From Paucibacter sp. KBW04 (lineage in GTDB: Bacteria > Pseudomonadota > Gammaproteobacteria > Burkholderiales > Burkholderiaceae_C), in contig NZ_QAJN01000001.1 of NCBI RefSeq assembly GCF_003852425.1, positions 1 to 64,000 of the forward strand: a stretch of 64,000 nt of DNA. Direction: 5' to 3'. Position numbers and translations under genes: made by a program. The notes below the pieces were generated by a model. That model saw only the letters and a list, made by a program, of their open reading frames with translations. It had not been told where the DNA came from and ran no database searches. Positions 5,514 to 41,856 of the stretch are shown here, piece by piece; positions within the stretch are counted from its first letter, which is position 1, and each line of letters opens with the position of its first letter.

Positions 5514-6071
5514 ATGATTCAAAACTGGTTCTCTCTTTTGACGCCTGCTCTGCAGGATCGTGCAATCCTGTTGCTTAATCATGTCATTTCGCGTGAAAGC
5601 CACGCCATGGCACGTTTGACACCTTTCGCGGGACGCTCCGTCTTGGTGCATTTGCAGGGTTGGCCCTCGATCTTGCCCCCGCTGCCCGATCTGGTCCTGG
5701 CCATCACGCCTGCCGGCTTGTTCGAGCGCATCCCGGCAGCCCATGAACCAGGCGCGGAGTTCCGTGCGGCCGCCGAGGGTGGCGAGGCCTTGCGGATTGA
5801 GTTGGATGCTTCCAACCCTGCCTTGCTGGCCTTGGGGGCCTTGACCGGCGACAAGCCGCGGGTCACGGTGCAGGGGGATGCCGCCCTGGCGGGCGAGATC
5901 AACTGGTTGATGGAGAACCTGCGCTGGGACATTGAGGATGATCTTGCCGCCCTGCTGGGCCCCGCCCCTGCGCACCAGCTGGCGCGCTGGTCCAAGGCCG
6001 TGGCAGGCGCTTTGGCTGCCCTGGCACGTGGCGCGGCTTCCTTCCAGCCGGGTGGACGCAGCGGCGCATGA
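5514..6071 (+). CDS. ubiJ: Ubiquinone biosynthesis accessory factor UbiJ (SCP2 domain)
   Basis: The 185-residue protein fits UbiJ, the SCP2-fold lipid-binding factor that organises the ubiquinone hydroxylation complex. Recognisable parts are the N-terminal helix ([20 protein letters not shown]), the SCP2 strand region, and the C-terminal segment [20 protein letters not shown]. Its stop overlaps the ubiB start by 4 nt (ATGA). An in-frame ATG at 5316 is rejected because it adds 66 residues of unrelated composition across the divergent promoter region. No Shine-Dalgarno is evident at 5514; a TACAAT hexamer at 5502-5507 would place transcription start almost at the ATG. ubiE, usual in this operon, is not upstream here. 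Confidence 0.85.
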
Positions 6072-7624
6072 GGTACTTTGCTCGCCTGCTGGTCATCGTC
6101 TGGACGATTATTCGTTTTGGCCTCGATGAGTTGGCCTTGTCTGGCCTGCGCCGTCGAAGATTCCAGTTACTGAGGCGTTTTGTTTCCTTTGGCCGCAGCT
6201 GGGAGCAGCCGCGCGGCGTGCGCCTGCGCCTGGCGCTGGAGCATCTGGGCCCCATCTTTGTCAAGTTTGGGCAGGTGCTGTCCACCCGCCGCGATTTGGT
6301 GCCGGACGACATCATCGAAGAGTTGTCCAAGCTACAGGATCGGGTGCCCCCGTTCCCGGCGGCTCAGTCGCGCGCCTTGGTGGAGAAGGCCTTCGGCCGG
6401 CCGGTGGAAGAGCTGTTTGGCAGCTTTGACGCCGAGCCTGTGGCCAGCGCTTCGATCGCGCAGGTGCATTTTGCGACGCTGAAGGACGGCCGCGAGGTGG
6501 CGGTCAAGGTCTTGCGCCCCGGCATGCTGGACACCATCGACGACGATATGGCCTTGCTGCGCACGGTGGCCGTCTGGGTGGAGCGGCTCTCGGCCGATGG
6601 CCGGCGCCTGAAGCCACGCGAGGTGGTGGCTGAGTTCAACAACTATCTGCACGATGAGTTGGACCTGGTGCGCGAAGCCGCCAATGCCGCCCAGCTGCGA
6701 CGCAATATGGCCGGCCTGGATTTGGTGCTGGTGCCCGAGATGATGTGGGATATGTGCAGCTCCGACGTCATCGTGATGGAGCGCATGCACGGCGTGCCGA
6801 TCTCGCAGTTGCAGAAGCTTAAGGATGCGGGCGTCGACATCCCCAAGCTGGCGCGGGACGGCGTCACCATCTTCTTCACCCAGGTCTTCCGCGACGGCTT
6901 TTTCCACGCCGATATGCACCCCGGCAATATCCAGGTGAGCCTGAATCCGGCGACCTTTGGTCGTTACATTGCCTTGGATTTCGGCATCATCGGCACGCTG
7001 ACCGAGGTCGACAAAGAGTATCTGGCGCAGAACTTCATCGCCTTCTTCCGGCGCGACTACAAGCGGGTGGCCGAGTTGCACATCGCCTCGGGCTGGGTGC
7101 CAGCCGGCACGCGGGTGGACGAGCTAGAGAGCGCGGTGCGGGCCGTCTGCGAGCCGCATTTCGACCGGCCGCTGAAGGACATTTCCCTGGGCCAGGTGCT
7201 GATGCGCTTGTTCCAGACCTCGCGTCGCTTCAATGTGGAGATTCAGCCTCAGCTGGTGCTGCTGCAAAAGACGCTGCTCAATATCGAGGGTCTGGGCCGC
7301 CAGTTGGACCCCGAGCTGGATCTCTGGGCCACGGCCAAGCCCTTTCTGGAGCGCTGGATGAACGAGCAGGTGGGGTGGCGCGCCCTGATCAATCAGGTCA
7401 AGAAGGAGGCGCCGCGCTATGCCCAGCTCTTCCCCGAGCTGCCGCGCCTGCTGCACGATGCGCTCAAACAGCAGGGCAGCCGGCAGGACAATGCCGTCAT
7501 GCTGGCCCTGATTCAGGAGCAGCGCCGCACCAACCGGCTCCTGCAAGCCCTGCTCTACGGGGCGGTGGGCTTTACCTTGGGTCTGCTGGGGGCAACGATC
7601 TTTCTGCGCACACACGGCTTCTGA
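6068..7624 (+). CDS. ubiB: Ubiquinone biosynthesis regulatory protein kinase-like UbiB
   Basis: The 518-residue protein belongs to the ABC1/ADCK/UbiB atypical kinase family and supports ubiquinone synthesis as a membrane-bound ATPase. The family KxGQ motif is present as [15 protein letters not shown], followed by the alanine-rich nucleotide loop ([16 protein letters not shown]), a catalytic-loop-like HADMHPGNI, and LDFGIIG as the DFG equivalent. A hydrophobic C-terminal hairpin ([19 protein letters not shown]) anchors it to the inner membrane. Translation is coupled to ubiJ through ATGA. Confidence 0.95.
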
Positions 7625-7750
7625 TCGGGTTTTCGAGGCCGGAGCTTAGTGCCTTCTGTGGCGATAATGCGCGCGCTCCAATTTTTCGGGCGCGCGGCGC
7701 CTGAACTCCCCCTCTTGCCCACTGTTCGCCTCAATTAAGAGCCTGATGCC

Positions 7751-9205
7751 ATGCTTTTGACCCTCGTCATCGTCTACCTCCTGGTCACCATCGCGATCGG
7801 GCTTTGGGCCGCCAAACGGGTCAAAAACACCTCGGACTTCGCCATCGCCGGCCGCAACTTGCCCCTGGTGATGATCATCACCACCACGTTTGCGACCTGG
7901 TTTGGCTCGGAGACGGTGTTGGGCATCCCGGCCAAGTTCGTGCAAAGCGGCTTGAACGGCGTGGTGGAAGACCCCTTCGGCGCCGGCACCTGCCTGATCT
8001 TGGTGGGCATCTTTTTCGCCGCCAAGCTCTACCGCATGACGCTGCTGACCATCAGCGACTACTACCGTGAGCGCTACGGCCGGGCGGTCGAGGTGATTTG
8101 CAGCTTCATCATCATCTTGTCCTATCTGGGCTGGGTGTCGGCACAGGTCACGGCCCTGGGCCTGGTCTTCAATCTGCTCTCGGGCGGCGCCATCAGCATC
8201 CCCGTGGGCATGGTCATAGGCACCGCCTCCATCCTGGCCTATACCTTGTTCGGCGGCATGTGGTCGGTGGCGGTGACGGACTTTATGCAGATGATCATCC
8301 TGGTGGTGGGCCTCTCGGCCATCGCCATCTTTGCCGGCAATATGGCCGGCGGCGCCGACAAGGTGATCGATCTGGCCACTAGCAAGGATCTGTTCCGCTT
8401 CCTGCCCGAACCGAGCTTCCACGACATCGTCTTCTTCATCGCGGCGGCCATCACCATGATGTTGGGCTCCATCCCGCAGCAGGACGTGTTCCAGCGCGTG
8501 ATGTCGGCCAAGGATGAGTACGCCGCCACCCGCGGCCCGGTCATCGGCGGCTTCTCCTACATCTTGTTCGCCTTTGTGCCCATGTTCCTGGTCACCAGCG
8601 CCCTGATCATCATGCCGGAGCGCGCTGCCCAGCTGATCGCGGAGGATCCGCAGAAAGTCATCCCCACGTTGGTGATGGAGCGCATGCCCTTCATCATGCA
8701 GGTGATCTTCTTCGGCGCTCTGCTGTCGGCCCTCAAGTCCACCGCCTCGGCCACGCTGTTGGCGCCCTCGGTGACTTTTGTGGAGAACATCTGGCGTCAG
8801 TTCTTCCCGCGCATCAGCGACAAGCAAGAGCTGCGCACCATGCGCGCCGCCGTGCTGATCTTCAGTGTCTGCGTCTGCGCCTATGCCATTGCCTTGCAGG
8901 GCACGCCCATCTACGAGATGGTGTCGGCGGCCTATCAGGTGACCCTGGTCGGCGCTTTCGTGCCCCTGGTTTTCGGCCTGTACTGGAAGCGCGCCAGCAC
9001 CCAGGGCGCCATCTTCGCCATCGTGATGGGCATGTTGACCTGGTTGATTTTCCTGAACACCCCGGCGGGTGAAGTCTTCCCGGCCCAGCTGGCCGGTTTC
9101 CTGGCCGGCATCGCGGGCATGTTGCTGGGTTCGCTGGGCCCGCAAGCCATCCGCAATGTGCATGCTTCTCACCACAAATTGGCAGGCATCGAGCAAAAGG
9201 CTTGA
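7751..9205 (+). CDS. Sodium:solute symporter family protein
   Basis: The 484-residue inner-membrane protein has about 13 hydrophobic helices and the style of the SSS/SLC5 family. The N-terminus FAIAGRNLPLVMIITTTFATWFG matches the family's first core helices, and YTLFGGMWSVAVTDFMQMIIL is the typical mid-protein segment. The family couples substrate uptake to the sodium gradient; the substrate cannot be told from sequence. It lies alone between ubiB (126 nt upstream) and fmdB, with a GATAAT hexamer at 7663-7668 as a possible -10 box. Confidence 0.85.
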   Translation: MLLTLVIVYLLVTIAIGLWAAKRVKNTSDFAIAGRNLPLVMIITTTFATWFGSETVLGIPAKFVQSGLNGVVEDPFGAGTCLILVGIFFAAKLYRMTLLTISDYYRERYGRAVEVICSFIIILSYLGWVSAQVTALGLVFNLLSGGAISIPVGMVIGTASILAYTLFGGMWSVAVTDFMQMIILVVGLSAIAIFAGNMAGGADKVIDLATSKDLFRFLPEPSFHDIVFFIAAAITMMLGSIPQQDVFQRVMSAKDEYAATRGPVIGGFSYILFAFVPMFLVTSALIIMPERAAQLIAEDPQKVIPTLVMERMPFIMQVIFFGALLSALKSTASATLLAPSVTFVENIWRQFFPRISDKQELRTMRAAVLIFSVCVCAYAIALQGTPIYEMVSAAYQVTLVGAFVPLVFGLYWKRASTQGAIFAIVMGMLTWLIFLNTPAGEVFPAQLAGFLAGIAGMLLGSLGPQAIRNVHASHHKLAGIEQKA

Positions 9206-9257
9206 GCTGAAGAGGTCGGGGCAGGGCGGCTAGCGCATCGCAACAGTCCTTGCCCCC

Positions 9258-9263
9258 TATAAT
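9258..9263 (+). promoter_or_regulatory. Possible -10 box upstream of fmdB
   Basis: A perfect TATAAT lies 82 nt before the fmdB start in the gap after the symporter. No convincing -35 hexamer is seen 16-18 nt upstream, so this is only a candidate promoter for the fmdB-DUF502-aspS group. Confidence 0.35.
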
Positions 9264-9345
9264 TTGCGGTTTTGAATCAAGGGTTTAGCGAAGCGCGCGA
9301 ACCTCGCTAACTTCCCTGACTTTGTTTAACGGACCACGAACAGCC

Positions 9346-9669
9346 ATGCCTATCTACGCCTACCGCTGCGCCGAATGCGGTCACGCCAAAGACGTGCTTC
9401 AAAAGCTCTCCGATGCCCCGTTGACCACCTGCCCGGCCTGCCATGCCGAGGCTTTCAGCAAACAAATCACCGCCGCCGGCTTCCAGCTCAAGGGCTCGGG
9501 CTGGTACGCCACCGATTTCAAGGGCGGCGGTGCCGCAGCGACTTCGGCGCCGGCCACTGGCGCGGCGGCTGCCCCGGCCCCGGCCAGCAGCTCCTCCGAC
9601 AGCGGCGCAAGCAGCACCAGCAGCAGCGGCCCGTCCACGGCCTGTGGCGGCTCCTGTGCTTGCCACTGA
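9346..9669 (+). CDS. FmdB family zinc-ribbon protein
   Basis: The 107-residue protein starts with MPIYAYRCAECGH and has two CxxC pairs (C8/C11 and C29/C32), the zinc ribbon of the FmdB family of putative regulatory proteins. The second half is a low-complexity Ala/Ser/Gly tail ending in CGGSCACH, which may bind a further metal. An in-frame ATG eight codons upstream is not used, because the family begins with MPxYxYxC. It stands just before the DUF502 gene and aspS, a common order in Burkholderiales. Its molecular role is not established. Confidence 0.85.
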   Translation: MPIYAYRCAECGHAKDVLQKLSDAPLTTCPACHAEAFSKQITAAGFQLKGSGWYATDFKGGGAAATSAPATGAAAAPAPASSSSDSGASSTSSSGPSTACGGSCACH

Positions 9670-9690
9670 GCTTGCTGTCCTGAGCGCCGC

Positions 9691-10362
9691 GTGAAAACCA
9701 TTGGGTTCATGAAAAAGTACATCATCACCGGCCTCCTGGTCTGGCTGCCCCTGGCCATCACCATCTGGGTGCTGCACTCGGTGCTGGGCGTGATCGACGG
9801 CGTGTTCGCCTCGATGCTGAGCGCTTCGCAGGCCGTGCTGCCCGCCTCCATGACCGAGAGCATCGAGCGCCTGCGTCATGTGCCCGGCTTGGGTCTGCTG
9901 ATCCTGGTCAGCGGCATGCTGCTGACCGGCATGTTTGTGGCCAATATCTTTGGCCAGTGGTGGTTGATGCAGTGGGACCGCCTGCTGTCCAACATCCCCA
10001 TCGTCAAAAGCATTTACAGCTCGGTCAAACAGGTGTCGGACACCTTGTTCTCCAGCAGCGGCAATGCCTTCCGCGAAGCGGTGCTGGTGCAGTACCCGCA
10101 TCAGGGCTCCTGGACCATCGCCTTCGTCACCGGCAAGCCCTCGGGCGAGGTGGCCGAGGCCTTGGGCGGCGAGCATGTCAGCCTCTACGTGCCGACCACG
10201 CCCAACCCCACCTCGGGCTTCTTTCTGATGATGCCGCGCAGCAGCGTGCGGCCGCTGAAGATGAGCGTGGATGCCGCGCTCAAACACATCATCTCGATGG
10301 GGGTGGTGGCGCCGGAAGAAGACGCCCGCCCTTTGCAGGTGCCGCTTAATCAGAAGGGTTGA
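9691..10362 (+). CDS. DUF502 family integral membrane protein
   Basis: The protein of 223 residues (217 if it starts at the ATG at 9709 rather than the GTG at 9691) has two transmembrane helices near its N-terminus (IITGLLVWLPLAITIWVL and LGLLILVSGMLLTGMFVANIF). A conserved soluble part follows (SNIPIVKSIYSSVKQVSDTLFS and YVPTTPNPTSGFFLMMPRSSV), the DUF502 signature. Function is unknown in the family. It follows fmdB by 21 nt and precedes aspS by about 140 nt. Family members often begin MKKYxxTGLLVWxPL, which favours the ATG at 9709. Confidence 0.85.
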   Translation: MKTIGFMKKYIITGLLVWLPLAITIWVLHSVLGVIDGVFASMLSASQAVLPASMTESIERLRHVPGLGLLILVSGMLLTGMFVANIFGQWWLMQWDRLLSNIPIVKSIYSSVKQVSDTLFSSSGNAFREAVLVQYPHQGSWTIAFVTGKPSGEVAEALGGEHVSLYVPTTPNPTSGFFLMMPRSSVRPLKMSVDAALKHIISMGVVAPEEDARPLQVPLNQKG

Positions 10363-38078: not shown

Positions 38079-38501
38079 TCAGGCCAGCAGGCTGAAGCTG
38101 GCTTGCAGCCGGGCGTCGTGCTCAGTTGAGGGCGCTGCGGCTTGCAAGAACAAGGCGGTTTCTTGCGCGCTGGCCTTGTGTTGCAGGTGCAGAATCTGGC
38201 CGCTGCTTGTTTGAAGCGTCGCCGCCCCTGGCCCTTGCAGGGCAAAGCTCAGATGAAACTGCTGCAGCCCTGCTTGCGGCTGGGCGCAGGCCTCGCCCTG
38301 AACGGCGAGCAGCCGCAGGCTCAGCCCCGGCTGCCCCAGGACCTCAAAGCACTGGCCCACAAAAGCTTGCCAGTCAGCCAGGCTGTGGGCATCACGCAGT
38401 GGCGGCAGGGCTTGGCTACGGCATTCGGCCAGAGCCGCCACGGGAAGGCCGCCGCCCAGCAGGCCGGCGCAGCCGCTCAAGACAAATTCACGCTTGTTCA
38501 T
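38079..38501 (-). CDS. Exported DUF6916-like small protein
   Basis: The 140-residue protein has a signal-like N-terminus (MNKREFVLSGCAGLLGGGLPVAALAE). GCAG could be a weak lipobox, and there is no twin arginine. The body (FVGQCFEV, LSLRLLAV, FHLSFALQGPGA, ILHLQHKASAQETALFLQ) follows the same pattern as the 98-residue protein at 40669-40965, so the two appear to be paralogues. It is the last gene of the Tail-Collar operon and starts 14 nt before the GNAT gene ends. Function unknown; the family name is by resemblance only. Confidence 0.65.
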   Translation of the reverse strand: MNKREFVLSGCAGLLGGGLPVAALAECRSQALPPLRDAHSLADWQAFVGQCFEVLGQPGLSLRLLAVQGEACAQPQAGLQQFHLSFALQGPGAATLQTSSGQILHLQHKASAQETALFLQAAAPSTEHDARLQASFSLLA

Positions 38502-39003
38502 GATGGGCTTGCCTTTCACAGACTTCAGGTTGGGCCGTGGCGACGGGGCGCCACAGCATATGCAGATGCCGGCCTTGCTGGCCCTGAACTTCAAAGCCCA
38601 GGGCTTGATAAAGCCGCTGCGCCGGGTTGTTGATCTCGACATGCAGGCTCAGTGCCTGGCCTAGCTGGGTTGCCTGCGCTTGCAGATGGCGCAGGCATTG
38701 CCTGCCCAAGCCCTGACCTCGCCAAGGCGGCAGCAGGCTGAGGTCCAGCAGGCCTAGCTCGGTGGCCAGGCGAGCCAGCCACAAGCGACCGACGGCCTCG
38801 CCGTTGCTGAGGATGATGCTGTGTTCGGCTTGTGGATACTGCTGGTGGTAGAAGCTGTTCTGCGCCTGATACTGCATCTCGACAAAAGCCTGTACAGCCG
38901 CCTCATCCCAATCGCTCAGCAAGGCCAACTCGTCCGCGCGTGTGCTGGCGTAGACGGCCTTTAAAAAGGCTTGATCGGCCGGGGTCGCTGGGCGCAGCTG
39001 CAT
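38488..39003 (-). CDS. GNAT family N-acetyltransferase
   Basis: The 171-residue protein has the GNAT core. LRPATPADQAFLKAVYAS opens it, LLDLSLLPPWRGQGLGRQCL includes the acetyl-CoA pyrophosphate loop RGQGLG, and LHVEINNPAQRLYQALGFEV is the C-terminal motif. The substrate is unknown. It starts 5 nt after the third Tail-Collar gene ends, so it is probably co-expressed and may acetylate a product of that operon. Confidence 0.88.
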   Translation of the reverse strand: MQLRPATPADQAFLKAVYASTRADELALLSDWDEAAVQAFVEMQYQAQNSFYHQQYPQAEHSIILSNGEAVGRLWLARLATELGLLDLSLLPPWRGQGLGRQCLRHLQAQATQLGQALSLHVEINNPAQRLYQALGFEVQGQQGRHLHMLWRPVATAQPEVCERQAHHEQA

Positions 39004-39008
39004 GAGGC

Positions 39009-39527
39009 TCAGCCGCGCGGTGGGTAGATGCCGACCAGGGCGATGATGAAGGTCAGCGTTAGAAAGGGCTGCAGATTGTTATGCGGCTGGCCGCCGCCCG
39101 CAGCACCCAGGGTTTGTGGGGCCATCAGCTGTGGCGTGCCTGAGGCGCGGTAGATATTGCCGCCATTGGTGGGCGACAAGGCCACGCTGGCGCTGGGCAT
39201 GCCGGTGGTGGGGGCGAGTGCGGCCTTCAGACCGTGGCGGTGGGCAGGCATTTGGCTGGGCTGCAGGGTGATGGATTCACTGCCCCCAGTTTCACCCAAC
39301 ACGCGCTCGCTCAAGCCCGGCCCCGCACCCCAGAACATGGGCGAGCGGCCCGCCAGATTGGGCAGGCCAAAGGTGCTGCGACCATCGCCTCCAAAATTGG
39401 TGCCCAGCAAGGAAAACAAGGCGGTGTTCTGAGCGATGGGCAGCAACTGTCCGTCGCAGGTGGCCCAGCCGCGGGGCGGGAAGTTGCCCGCGAAGATACG
39501 GATCTCGGCGACAAAAGGATCGGCCAT
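39009..39527 (-). CDS. Tail-Collar domain protein, MdpB-like (third of three)
   Basis: The 172-residue protein has the Tail-Collar fold signature: FVAEIRIFAGNFPPRGWATC, CDGQLLPIAQNTALFSLLG and GGDGRSTFGLPNLAGRSPM. A QMPAHRHGL segment and a hydrophobic end, NNLQPFLTLTFIIALVGIYPPRG without the last residues, follow. Such short stand-alone proteins are called microcystin-dependent protein B or phage tail proteins, but no phage genes are nearby. The ATG at 39527 has a GAGGAGCAC site. Role unknown; three paralogues in a row suggest a hetero-oligomer. Confidence 0.85.
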   Translation of the reverse strand: MADPFVAEIRIFAGNFPPRGWATCDGQLLPIAQNTALFSLLGTNFGGDGRSTFGLPNLAGRSPMFWGAGPGLSERVLGETGGSESITLQPSQMPAHRHGLKAALAPTTGMPSASVALSPTNGGNIYRASGTPQLMAPQTLGAAGGGQPHNNLQPFLTLTFIIALVGIYPPRG

Positions 39528-39537
39528 GCTGTGCTCC

Positions 39538-40056
39538 TCAAGCCTGCGAAGGGTAGATGCCAAACAGCGAGATGATGAAGCTCACCGTTTGGAAGGGGGC
39601 CATATTGCTGTGGGGCTGGCTGCCGCCCTGGCTCGTGATGGCCACCGCCGCCATATCGCTCGTGGGTTGGCCGCTGCCGTAGTACTGGGCGCTGCTCGAT
39701 GCCGCCAATACGCCGGAGGGGCCGGCCGTGGCCACGGCCACCGTGCTGCTGGCCGAAAGCTGGTGGCTGTGGGCAGGGAGATGCGGGACCATCAAGGTGA
39801 CGTCTTCTACACCGCCTATTTCTCCGAGGGTGTGGCCCCCTGAGCCAGGGCTTTGGCCTTGGTGCATGGGCAGGCGGCCGCGCAGATCGGGCAGGGCAAA
39901 GCTCTGCTGGCCGTCACCGCCGTAGGTGGTGCCGATCAGATTGAAGAGGGTCTCGTACTCCGAGATGGGCAGGGTGCTGCCATCGCAAAACATCCAGCCC
40001 GCGGGGGCGAAGTTGCCCCCGAACATGCGGATCTCACCCACAAAGGGATTGGCCAT
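39538..40056 (-). CDS. Tail-Collar domain protein, MdpB-like (second of three)
   Basis: The 172-residue paralogue of its neighbours begins MANPFVGEIRMFGGNFAPAG, then CDGSTLPISEYETLFNLIG, GGDGQQSFALPDLRGRLPM and HLPAHSHQL. It ends HSNMAPFQTVSFIISLFGIY. The middle variable region is rich in Ser, Ala and Gly. It starts 62 nt after the first paralogue ends and stops 10 nt before the third begins. Confidence 0.87.
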   Translation of the reverse strand: MANPFVGEIRMFGGNFAPAGWMFCDGSTLPISEYETLFNLIGTTYGGDGQQSFALPDLRGRLPMHQGQSPGSGGHTLGEIGGVEDVTLMVPHLPAHSHQLSASSTVAVATAGPSGVLAASSSAQYYGSGQPTSDMAAVAITSQGGSQPHSNMAPFQTVSFIISLFGIYPSQA

Positions 40057-40118
40057 GGCGGTCCTTTCCTGTGCGCCTGGGGCGCGATTGATTGGCTGAG
40101 CCTCTCCGTACCGCCCGC

Positions 40119-40631
40119 TCAGTTGCGCGAGGGGAAGATGCCTTGCAAGGCGATGATGAAGCTGAGGGTTAAGAAGGGCTGCATATTGGTATGCGCTTGG
40201 CTAGCCCCGGTGTTCGTCACCGCGGCCGGATTGAGGGGGCCGACCGAGGTCGCCGCTGGGGCATAGATATCGCGTCCACCGCGGGCTTTGGCTGCCGGTA
40301 CGGCCAAGCCTGGCACGCTGGCGTTGGCGATATCGCCGCTGGCCTGCAGGCCGTGCTGATGCTGGGGCATTTCGAGGGTCGTCAGGGTATGGGCTTCTTC
40401 ACCTGCTCGGCTGCCCAAGGGCCAGGCATTGCTGCTGTAACGCGGAACGCGGCCGCGCAGATCCGGCAGTGCAAAAGTGACTCGCCCATCGCCGCCGTAG
40501 GTCGTGCCGAGGATGGAGAACAGGGCCTGGTTCTGGTTGATGGACATCAGCTGCCCATTGCAAAAAGCCCAGCCCCTGGGCGGGTAGTTGAAGCTGACGA
40601 TGCTGATCTGGCCAAGAAACGGTTCAGACAT
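40119..40631 (-). CDS. Tail-Collar domain protein, MdpB-like (first of three)
   Basis: The 170-residue paralogue begins MSEPFLGQISIVSFNYPPRG, then CNGQLMSINQNQALFSILG, GGDGRVTFALPDLRGRVPRY and EMPQHQHGL, and ends NMQPFLTLSFIIALQGIF. It has no signal peptide, so export would need another route. The ATG at 40631 has a GGAGAC site. It follows the DUF6916-like gene by 37 nt in the same operon. Confidence 0.87.
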   Translation of the reverse strand: MSEPFLGQISIVSFNYPPRGWAFCNGQLMSINQNQALFSILGTTYGGDGRVTFALPDLRGRVPRYSSNAWPLGSRAGEEAHTLTTLEMPQHQHGLQASGDIANASVPGLAVPAAKARGGRDIYAPAATSVGPLNPAAVTNTGASQAHTNMQPFLTLSFIIALQGIFPSRN

Positions 40632-40668
40632 GGTGTCTCCAATCTCTAGAAAGAGCCCAGCGAGAAGA

Positions 40669-40965
40669 TCAGTTGAAAATGGCCTCGTACTGCCTGCCCT
40701 GAGCGTCGGCGCCGACGGGCACCAGAAATATTTCCAGCTCTCCGGGCTCGGCCCCGCTCTCACCGAGCTTGCGCAAGCTGTAGAGGCCTTGCTCAAGAGC
40801 GGGCTGGGCGGGCCCGGCAAAGAGCAGGGAAAAGGCCTGGCGTTGACCGGGTACGGCCGTCGCAGACAAGGCTCGGGCCTCTTGCAAGGTCAGCCGGATG
40901 GGCAGCTGAGCGCCTGGCAGCTCAAAGCCCTGGCCCAGCTCGGCCTGGAACTGGCTCAGCTCCAT
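40669..40965 (-). CDS. DUF6916-like small protein
   Basis: The 98-residue protein (MELSQFQAELGQGFELPG, then FSLLFAGPAQPALEQGLYSL and ELEIFLVPVGAD) resembles the DUF6916 proteins found beside Tail-Collar genes in other bacteria. No signal peptide. It begins 2 nt after the PEP-CTERM gene ends, so the two are tightly linked, and it shares its pattern with the exported protein at the far end of the operon. Function unknown. Confidence 0.7.
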   Translation of the reverse strand: MELSQFQAELGQGFELPGAQLPIRLTLQEARALSATAVPGQRQAFSLLFAGPAQPALEQGLYSLRKLGESGAEPGELEIFLVPVGADAQGRQYEAIFN

Positions 40966-40967
40966 GT

Positions 40968-41708
40968 TCAGCTCAAGGGGCGAGTGTCTTTGTCCTGGCG
41001 CCTGCGCAGGCCCACGGCCAGCAGCAGGCCACCGCCCAGCAAGAGCACAGCGCTGGCCGGCTCGGGCACGGCTTGGGTGATCAGCTGGATGCTGATATCG
41101 GCGTAGCCGCCGCTTTGGCCGGTGCCTCGGTTCTTGAGCACCAGGCTGTCCAGGTCCACGCTGAACGAGTTGCCACTGAGCAGATGCACATAGCTGCTGG
41201 GTGTGCTGGGGCTTTGCAGGCCGCTGAAACCGGTGCTTAGGAAGCCATCTTTGTCGGTGATGCTAAGGCCCACGATGGTCTTGCCCGTGAGGCTGAGGTT
41301 GTTGAACTGGTAGCGGGCGTGAGCGCTGCTGTCACCCAGATAACCCGTCACCCATTGTTCATTGGGCAAACCTTCGTTGAGCACAGCGCCCACGCCAATG
41401 CGCAGATTGATGCTTTGGCCCTGGAAGCTGATCTGCTCCAGGCTCAGCATCCAGCCACCGATATTGCTGCCATCGCCAGGCGAGAGCTTGAGGCCGTCGG
41501 CACCGCTGACCTGGTCAAAGGTATTGATGGTGTTGCTTGCGTCACCGACCAAGCCACCCGGTGAAAACAGGCTGATGGTGACCGGGCCGTCAAAGGCCGC
41601 TTGAGCGGCACCGCTGGCGCCAAGGCCGGCCAGTGCGGCACTCAAAATCCAGGCCCAGCAAGGACGGGAGAGGCCGGCGAGCCGGCTGCGAGAGGAGGAA
41701 GGCTTCAT
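40968..41708 (-). CDS. PEP-CTERM sorted exported protein
   Basis: The 246-residue protein has an N-terminal signal peptide (WILSAALAGLGASGAAQAA) and a C-terminal PEP-CTERM tripartite signal from about residue 214: VPEPAS, a hydrophobic helix LLLGGGLLLAVGL and a basic RRR. This tail is the sorting signal of exosortases. The mature part (FDGPVTISLFSPGG, then DGLKLSPGDGSNIGGWMLS) is predicted beta-rich. It heads the Tail-Collar operon with an AAGGAGCTGATGT site before the ATG. No exosortase gene is in the window, although the EpsL-like gene at 2613-3860 points to such a system. Confidence 0.88.
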   Translation of the reverse strand: MKPSSSRSRLAGLSRPCWAWILSAALAGLGASGAAQAAFDGPVTISLFSPGGLVGDASNTINTFDQVSGADGLKLSPGDGSNIGGWMLSLEQISFQGQSINLRIGVGAVLNEGLPNEQWVTGYLGDSSAHARYQFNNLSLTGKTIVGLSITDKDGFLSTGFSGLQSPSTPSSYVHLLSGNSFSVDLDSLVLKNRGTGQSGGYADISIQLITQAVPEPASAVLLLGGGLLLAVGLRRRQDKDTRPLS

Positions 41709-41831
41709 ACATCAGCTCCTTGGCAACGCAGTGTGTGAGCGCGTGACTTTGTTCACGAGTTCGCGATGCAATGTAGCCCTCATGGGGGACGCTGTCATCC
41801 CCTTGTTCTCGCATTCTTTGTGTAACGAACG

Positions 41832-41856
41832 AAAAAAAGGGGACCCGAAGGTCCCC
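41832..41856 (-). terminator. Rho-independent terminator of arginase gene
   Basis: On the minus strand GGGGACC, loop TTCG, GGTCCCC is followed by TTTTTTTC. The 7-bp GC stem, stable tetraloop and T-run lie about 90 nt after the arginase stop. It insulates the arginase transcript from the downstream PEP-CTERM operon, which must have its own promoter between here and 41709. Confidence 0.92.

Follow-up and report, generated by a model that had tools for sequence, protein, structure and literature searches.

In phage T4 the Collar domain is found in the short tail fibre gp12 and in the tip of the long tail fibre gp37, and iron is held by an H-x-H motif in gp37, according to the available part of a published account (PMC11705849). 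A Collar protein is also encoded in a non-phage operon, rhiABC of Rhizobium leguminosarum, whose product RhiB has been placed in the Collar/COG4675 group and assigned a proposed role in plant interaction in the available portions of two accounts (PMC13133039, PMC6969944). We analysed a 64,000-nucleotide (nt) stretch of Paucibacter sp. KBW04 (contig NZ_QAJN01000001.1, positions 1 to 64,000; hereafter the window), in which seven adjacent minus-strand genes encode a PEP-CTERM protein, two DUF6916 proteins (DUF6916a and DUF6916b), three Collar proteins (C1, C2 and C3; the collars or trio) and a GNAT N-acetyltransferase. Comparison with other genomes (G numbers) and loci (L numbers) indicates that such collars make up a conserved cassette of cells, linked to large proteins that appear to be surface-bound, in both Gram-positive and Gram-negative phyla, which suggests an undescribed bacterial surface device rather than the remains of a virus.

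The collars resemble gp12 and the gp37 tip in combining a Collar domain with H-x-H, and their profile matches the solved structures 1ocy, 5iv5, 8kec and 9nxk; unlike those fibres, the cassette is without shaft or virion genes, has three old paralogues instead of one homotrimeric protein, and links its collars to GNAT, DUF6916 and surface proteins. RhiB shares with the trio that it is a Collar-domain protein in a non-phage operon, whereas GNAT and DUF6916 are unmentioned in the available portions of the rhiABC accounts (PMC13133039, PMC6969944); an R. leguminosarum plasmid match, among the matches listed, is weak (28% identity, E 0.03) and was not identified as RhiB. As in exosortase/PEP-CTERM systems, the window protein has a PEP-CTERM motif and its genome two exosortase matches, whereas no exosortase match was found in 15 of the 18 tested cassette-bearing genomes that lack a PEP-CTERM neighbour, and other anchors accompany the cassette elsewhere. 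One variant, in Comamonas antarctica, recalls adhesins of the filamentous haemagglutinin (FHA) type in that the trio adjoins a two-partner secretion (TPS)/YDG protein and ShlB/FhaC; unlike those systems, no TPS gene lies beside the window cassette. The mosaic adhesive trimer (MAT) fibres of Bdellovibrio are long, phage-fibre-like trimers that a bacterium uses in recognition. To our knowledge, MAT fibres are not a three-gene collar set with GNAT and DUF6916. A literature search, with subscription papers mostly outside its reach, found no description of the cassette and no paper naming DUF6916.

The window locus is one version of a conserved cassette. A scan with an alignment of C2 gave 582 confirmed relatives, of which the best 80 were taken, so that this set is biased towards close relatives. 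These loci fall in at least nine phyla as assigned from organism names (Pseudomonadota, Chloroflexota, Bacteroidota, Actinomycetota, Bacillota, Acidobacteriota, Verrucomicrobiota, Hydrogenedentota and Myxococcota) and derive from some metagenome bins and from isolates including Nocardioides, Paenibacillus, Dyadobacter, Mesorhizobium and Sulfidibacter. With counts that are lower bounds because of contig ends, exactly three collars are present at 76 of the 80 loci, GNAT at 69, DUF6916 at 62 and both GNAT and DUF6916 at 59. A called gene of at least 900 amino acids (aa) directly adjoins the triplet on the same strand at 43 loci; a looser count of 59 (at least 900 aa, no more than three genes upstream or four downstream) takes in wrong-strand and apparently unrelated calls (for example L089, L094 and L107). 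The trio with GNAT is also carried by large plasmids of Deinococcus ficus, Aminobacter niigataensis, Ruegeria TM1040 and Comamonas antarctica. The sequence-only reading would have failed had related genomes shown collars only inside prophages; the trio instead recurs in non-phage settings in at least nine phyla.

Closer to the window, the trio is patchy, being present in 5 of 18 genomes of the genus. Genome G009 has the same seven genes at the same site, the full seven-gene order is also found in G010 and G024 in other neighbourhoods, and G048 keeps the order of the unit with one DUF6916. Since all seven genes have ratios of nonsynonymous to synonymous substitution rates (dN/dS) of 0.13-0.43 between the window and the syntenic relative G009, indicating purifying selection, and since the seven-gene order recurs in G009, G010 and G024, the unit is more than a chance arrangement. 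Among 59 genomes, a profile of the three window collars (E <= 1e-15) finds collars in 11, including the window's own; DUF6916 occurs in seven of the 59, all within those 11, and homologues of the window PEP-CTERM protein in four genomes including its own, each at a trio. The GNAT profile A4 gives ten matches at E <= 1e-15, seven of them (E <= 2.3e-59) in the cassettes of the seven DUF6916 genomes; because those seven cassette GNATs were in the profile, the informative part is that only three weaker matches lie elsewhere (E 4.7e-29 to 7.6e-16).

The association of collars with DUF6916 holds at greater distance. Across 370 genomes of the class, collars (profile A3, E <= 1e-20) occur in 24 and DUF6916 (Pfam) in 11, collars being present in 11 of the 11 DUF6916 genomes versus 13 of the 359 others (Fisher test, 7e-15, kinship ignored); A3 held sequences from seven of those 11, and the collars there were first found with a profile free of them. 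A DUF6916 profile built from cassette members (A6, E <= 1e-6) detects the family in 35 of 397 genomes of the phylum, and of the 32 genomes whose DUF6916 regions were examined (all but G041, G376 and the window genome, G000), 30 have a collar match there (E <= 1e-4), 17 three or more collars and 28 GNAT.

The three collars of a locus belong to distinct types. A tree of 271 collars from 91 triplets, from which loci without exactly three same-strand collars and sequences outside 140-215 aa had been dropped, groups 86 sequences in a pure type-3 clade (support 0.96) and 90 in a type-2 clade (0.91); the other 95 were taken as type 1, for which the best clade has weak support (0.19). One collar of each type is present in 85 of the 91 triplets, 69 of them in the order 1-2-3 and 16 in the order 2-1-3, the exceptions being L049, L050, L071 and L142, and L109 and L124 with one sequence dropped each. 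The position label requires 23 changes on the collar tree versus at least 115 in 200 shuffles. Judged from this tree, the collar paralogues are old, and recent tandem duplication is ruled out as the source of the trio. The H-x-H motif occupies one alignment column in all 271 collars and aligns with the motif of the solved fibres 8kec and 9nxk. Residue two, relevant to N-terminal acetylation by GNAT, is Ala, Ser, Gly, Thr, Pro or Val in 247 of the 271.

Leader-bearing collars, recognised by eye, occur at seven loci (L049, L050, L052, L275, L278, L280 and L281, the last cut by a contig end). With the profiles used, none of these has GNAT or DUF6916, versus 69 and 62 of the best 80 loci, which are mostly leaderless (Fisher tests, 5e-6 for GNAT and 8e-5 for DUF6916, with L049 and L050 close kin); this absence suggests that both partners are needed only for leaderless collars. 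Among the 76 DUF6916 proteins of the best 80 loci, 20 exceed 115 aa, and 13 of those (one doubtful) match a loose pattern like that of twin-arginine translocation (Tat) signals.

The surface link put forward in the sequence-only reading is well supported: the large proteins next to the trio are, where tested, of surface type, some collars have leaders, and in one lineage leader, collars and sorting signal are fused. A Pfam scan of six large neighbours gave an anchor or secretion domain in four (Table 1). The Roseateles group has a PEP-CTERM protein as partner, and the window PEP-CTERM protein sits where many other loci have giant proteins. The C-terminal region of giants lying upstream of C1 (a profile of 123 positions from 27 sequences) matches in 4 of the 370 class genomes, each of which has a collar triplet. 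The query included three of the four loci; it did not include G376, whose match abuts C1. A second match in G214 lies on another contig. At L275 in genome G153 a single minus-strand open reading frame (ORF; 8664-10268) joins a leader, recognised by eye, to three Collar domains and a PEP-CTERM motif (Pfam scores 235.4 and 34.3 bits), and this genome has an exosortase; Paenibacillus eucommiae (L130) has a fusion of two collars, of types 2 and 1 as judged by eye, with a third collar after it. Through these fusions the collars are linked with one another and, in one lineage, with sorting to the surface.

The same proximity could mean that the collars stay in the cytoplasm or periplasm, undisplayed, and act as a trimer that clamps the adjacent beta-helical or PEP-CTERM protein during folding or chaperones its export. 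This would suit the leaderless collars of most loci, the trio directly abutting a large protein at 43 of the best 80, and the restriction of the giants' C-terminal region to triplet genomes (with three of the four loci in the query). Leader-bearing collars and the PEP-CTERM fusion, however, place collars outside the cytoplasm in several lineages, and the partners differ widely, from a 246-aa PEP-CTERM protein to immunoglobulin (Ig)/cadherin, SLH and YDG/TPS proteins, so that we regard an undisplayed clamp as unlikely.

The sequence-only reading had also connected the collars with exosortase sorting, and this connection proved real within a lineage-specific range. Exosortase is present in 13 of 13 genomes with a PEP-CTERM-type protein at the collar locus versus 3 of 18 without (Fisher test, 3e-6), and the window genome has two exosortase matches (PF09721). 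A single motif scan of every locus in the 31 genomes upheld the division: a hydrophobic stretch accompanies a PEP- or PAP-type tail in 13 of 13, and the other 18 have only low-complexity P-x-P frames. The TIGR02595 cut-off (16) is reached by nine of the 13 (the window, L045, L046, L049, L050, L069, L275, L278 and, exactly at the cut, L325); L276 (14.5 bits) and L277 (13.8 bits) fall below it, and L043 and L044 were outside that scan. Exosortase was rejected as a universal partner, being confined to loci with a PEP-CTERM-type neighbour.

Conservation of the cassette, association of its partners, one-of-each paralogy, retention of H-x-H, surface-type neighbours where tested, and fusion are direct observations. 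From them we infer, with moderate confidence, a chromosomal, non-phage surface-attachment cassette making a displayed, heterotrimeric, metal-centred fibre-tip knob, with GNAT and DUF6916 serving the leaderless collars. C1, C2 and C3 would correspond to the collar and tip of a tail fibre minus its shaft; one copy of each would most likely assemble as a trimer, and its three H-x-H motifs would clamp one metal ion, as in homotrimeric phage fibre tips. The knob may be shown on the cell surface with a partner anchored by the host's own means (exosortase/PEP-CTERM in the window; SLH, cell-wall-binding, type IX secretion system (T9SS) or two-partner-secreted giants elsewhere) and would serve attachment or recognition. 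GNAT and DUF6916 would act on leaderless collars before or during their export, GNAT perhaps by N-acetylating them and DUF6916, present in the window in one copy without and one with an export signal, perhaps as chaperone or carrier. Acetylation of the subunits, proposed in the sequence-only reading, is supported indirectly, by a GNAT specific to the cassette and by the lack of GNAT at the seven loci with leader-bearing collars. If this is correct, an undescribed attachment system is defined, DUF6916 and the GNAT subfamily are given a place of action, and the role of RhiB and of soil COG4675 proteins becomes testable. A fuller version, in which one organelle is shared across phyla, with a 1:1:1 metal-centred trimer forming in the cytoplasm, GNAT acetylating its N termini and Tat-signal DUF6916 exporting it folded to cap the anchored partner, appears doubtful; if true, it would represent a cell-built heteromeric tail-fibre tip with its own modification and export factors, fitting any host anchoring chemistry.

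Several observations weigh against the attachment cassette. Of 13 DUF6916 regions examined in the class sample, four are without a collar (L068, L070, L077, L079), as are the examined stretches of G466 and G486 in the phylum sample. H-x-H is a general trait of the family, found also in 69 of 75 viral collars, and window collars C1-C3 have no signal peptide. An AlphaFold2 (AF2) model of the natural two-collar fusion at L130 was poor (predicted local distance difference test, pLDDT, 50) and of no use, so that only gene content and motif retention argue for the heterotrimer; single-collar versions (for example L076, L080 and L331) imply that a heterotrimer is not obligatory. By Pfam the large neighbour at L087 has Ig/cadherin repeats only and no anchor, no Pfam domain was found in the 4174-aa neighbour at L272 in Aminobacter, and the giants' C-terminal region was not found in five of nine triplet genomes of the class (G000, G128, G270, G312, G325). 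Exosortase is present also in 3 of the 18 collar genomes without a PEP-CTERM neighbour. On the supporting side, a Collar-domain protein is reported in the Ruegeria pomeroyi exoproteome in the available part of that study (PMC4949626), though its cassette membership was not established. The last point, like the listing of COG4675 in one soil metaproteome in the available part of its account (PMC5579227) and the motif in 271 of 271 collars, would fit secreted, diffusible metal-binding or lectin-like proteins with no physical tie to a surface protein; against this, the collars are often linked to large proteins, those tested being of surface type, and in one lineage are fused to a sorting signal, and we find diffusible products distinctly improbable.

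The NCBI name 'tail fiber protein' for these collars invites a reading as phage remains. The absence of nearby phage genes, noted from the sequence, was upheld: ten flanking genes were tested and all are cellular (asparaginase II, S10 peptidase, DUF429, arginase, lysine-decarboxylase-like, ThiF, S41 protease, two ABC transporter parts and a chemotaxis receptor), with no phage structural gene among them and no sheath, tube or baseplate gene recognised among the seven genes of the unit or the ten flanks. Of 16 further genus members (the 18 searched minus the window's genome and G009), ten have an empty site in which the DUF429 and arginase genes lie 19-249 nt apart, with no room for a cassette; G006 has duplicated DUF429 pieces adjoining arginase, the available stretches of G011, G013, G016 and G017 contain no arginase, and G010 gave no DUF429 match. 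C2 is 35.7% identical to the phage record ranked best, none of the 775 matching records reaches 60%, and DUF6916a has no match at E 1e-3 among 50,697 phage records. GNAT is present in two and DUF6916 in one of the best 80 viral-contig loci. Membership of the Collar family and PHROG tail matches are what a remnant of a prophage, tailocin or other contractile system would leave; set against them, the cellular flanks, the phage records, the viral contigs and the purifying selection on all seven genes make a remnant hardly credible. Prophage or tailocin origin was rejected on the basis of the flanks, the empty site and the phage-record and viral-contig comparisons, and the non-phage nature of the locus is well supported.

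The patchy distribution in the genus (trio in 5 of 18) and the likeness to phage receptor-binding tips might also speak for an anti-phage device or receptor decoy. We consider this very improbable: PADLOC gave no match for six of the seven proteins and for C2 only a weakly AbiEi-like one (E 0.0047), and no defence gene was recognised among the neighbours, the defence-family scan covering the seven proteins only.

Families in the window were called with Pfam/TIGRFAM-type profiles at curated cut-offs. The close spacing, shared strand and family assignments of the sequence-only reading stood up to this: all seven ORFs are in place at 38079-41708, the largest gap is 62 nt, and each profile exceeds its cut-off (Table 1). 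Intergenic spacings of 2, 37, 62, 10, 5 and -14 nt, in transcription order, make co-transcription of the seven genes likely. C2 and C1 are 45% and 47% identical to C3, respectively. Terminator-like and promoter-like sites overall were about as numerous in the scan as expected by chance.

Table 1. Features of the seven-gene unit and its surroundings in the window, followed by large neighbours of collar triplets with anchor or secretion domains
Feature	Position	Strand	Evidence and remarks
PEP-CTERM exported protein, 246 aa	40968..41708	-	first gene of the unit; PF07589 21.1 bits (cut 20.7), TIGR02595 21 (cut 16)
DUF6916a, 98 aa, without leader	40669..40965	-	PF21880 87.1 bits (cut 27)
Collar protein C1, 170 aa, without leader, type 1	40119..40631	-	PF07484 98.5 bits (cut 24); H-x-H 40361-40353
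Collar protein C2, 172 aa, without leader, type 2	39538..40056	-	PF07484 103.1 bits (cut 24); H-x-H 39771-39763
Collar protein C3, 172 aa, without leader, type 3	39009..39527	-	PF07484 94.0 bits (cut 24); H-x-H 39242-39234
GNAT N-acetyltransferase, cassette-associated subfamily, 171 aa	38488..39003	-	PF00583 Acetyltransf_1 47.1 bits (cut 20.7)
DUF6916b, 140 aa, putative N-terminal export signal (Tat-like, by eye)	38079..38501	-	PF21880 28.7 bits (cut 27; marginal)
Terminator-like hairpin between arginase gene and unit	41839..41856	-	7 pairs and T run; end of preceding gene
Promoter-like sequence 5' of unit	41770..41798	-	9/12 matches; 1 found versus 0.7 expected
Large neighbour, Paenibacillus L125			SLH domain
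Large neighbour, Desulfosporosinus L100			CWB2
Large neighbour, Dyadobacter L103			T9SS sorting domain
Large neighbour, Comamonas antarctica L274, 3937 aa			TPS domain and YDG repeats; ShlB/FhaC transporter alongside

The leader of DUF6916b reads K-R-E-F-V-L by eye, with K-R in place of the R-R of Tat signals, and the DUF6916 proteins of some relatives have R-R-x-F/L leaders (for example L046, L084, L131 and L144). The AF2 model of DUF6916a (pLDDT 91.5) predicts one helix and six strands. Neither fold nor sequence gave DUF6916a a confident relative, the best Foldseek matches being PilZ domains (E 0.022, template-modelling score about 0.46), and no viral structure model matched it at E <= 0.001; a cyclic di-GMP role for DUF6916 is not claimed, as the PilZ fold matches lack confidence. 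The middle region of the collars (100-141) is 22-25% identical across sampled loci, whereas identity in the collar and C-terminal regions is 67-75%. Between the window and G009 no positive selection on a binding loop was seen, the dN/dS of this middle region being 0.09-0.30.

Other arrangements of collar genes were also observed. The only other Collar match of the window genome lies at about position 144658 of contig C1, about 105 kb away; the surrounding segment (C1:134000-153000, L005) contains phage tail genes by eye, a context unrelated to the operon. Loci L318 and L321, like the four collarless class regions named above, have DUF6916 and no collar in the examined stretch, and may be orphans or split cassettes. 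Single-collar forms with GNAT occur at L076, L080, L331, L339 and L341, with DUF6916 at least in L076, L331, L339 and L341; at L076, L080, L339 and L341, and not at L331, the single collar adjoins a protein of about 2000-2400 aa, perhaps a minimal form. Single collars at L048 and L051 belong to a different cluster, by eye with a binding-protein-like gene and two further conserved neighbours. An extra gene of about 380-495 aa lies in the interval between C3 and GNAT at L098, L118, L120, L139, L271, L272, L273 and L320, in Mesorhizobium, Stappia, Deinococcus (where it is annotated as an ABC transporter substrate-binding protein), Aminobacter, Ruegeria and one further genome.

Among contigs labelled viral, L161 and L162 are bacterial by their gene lists and L165 has GNAT and DUF6916, which is a warning for prophage callers. 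L161 contains two tandem collar trios (5723-8909) after a collagen-like repeat protein and three secreted-looking proteins. Nine viral contigs (L173-L177 and L180-L183, several of them alike) each have three collar frames of about 228-253 codons.

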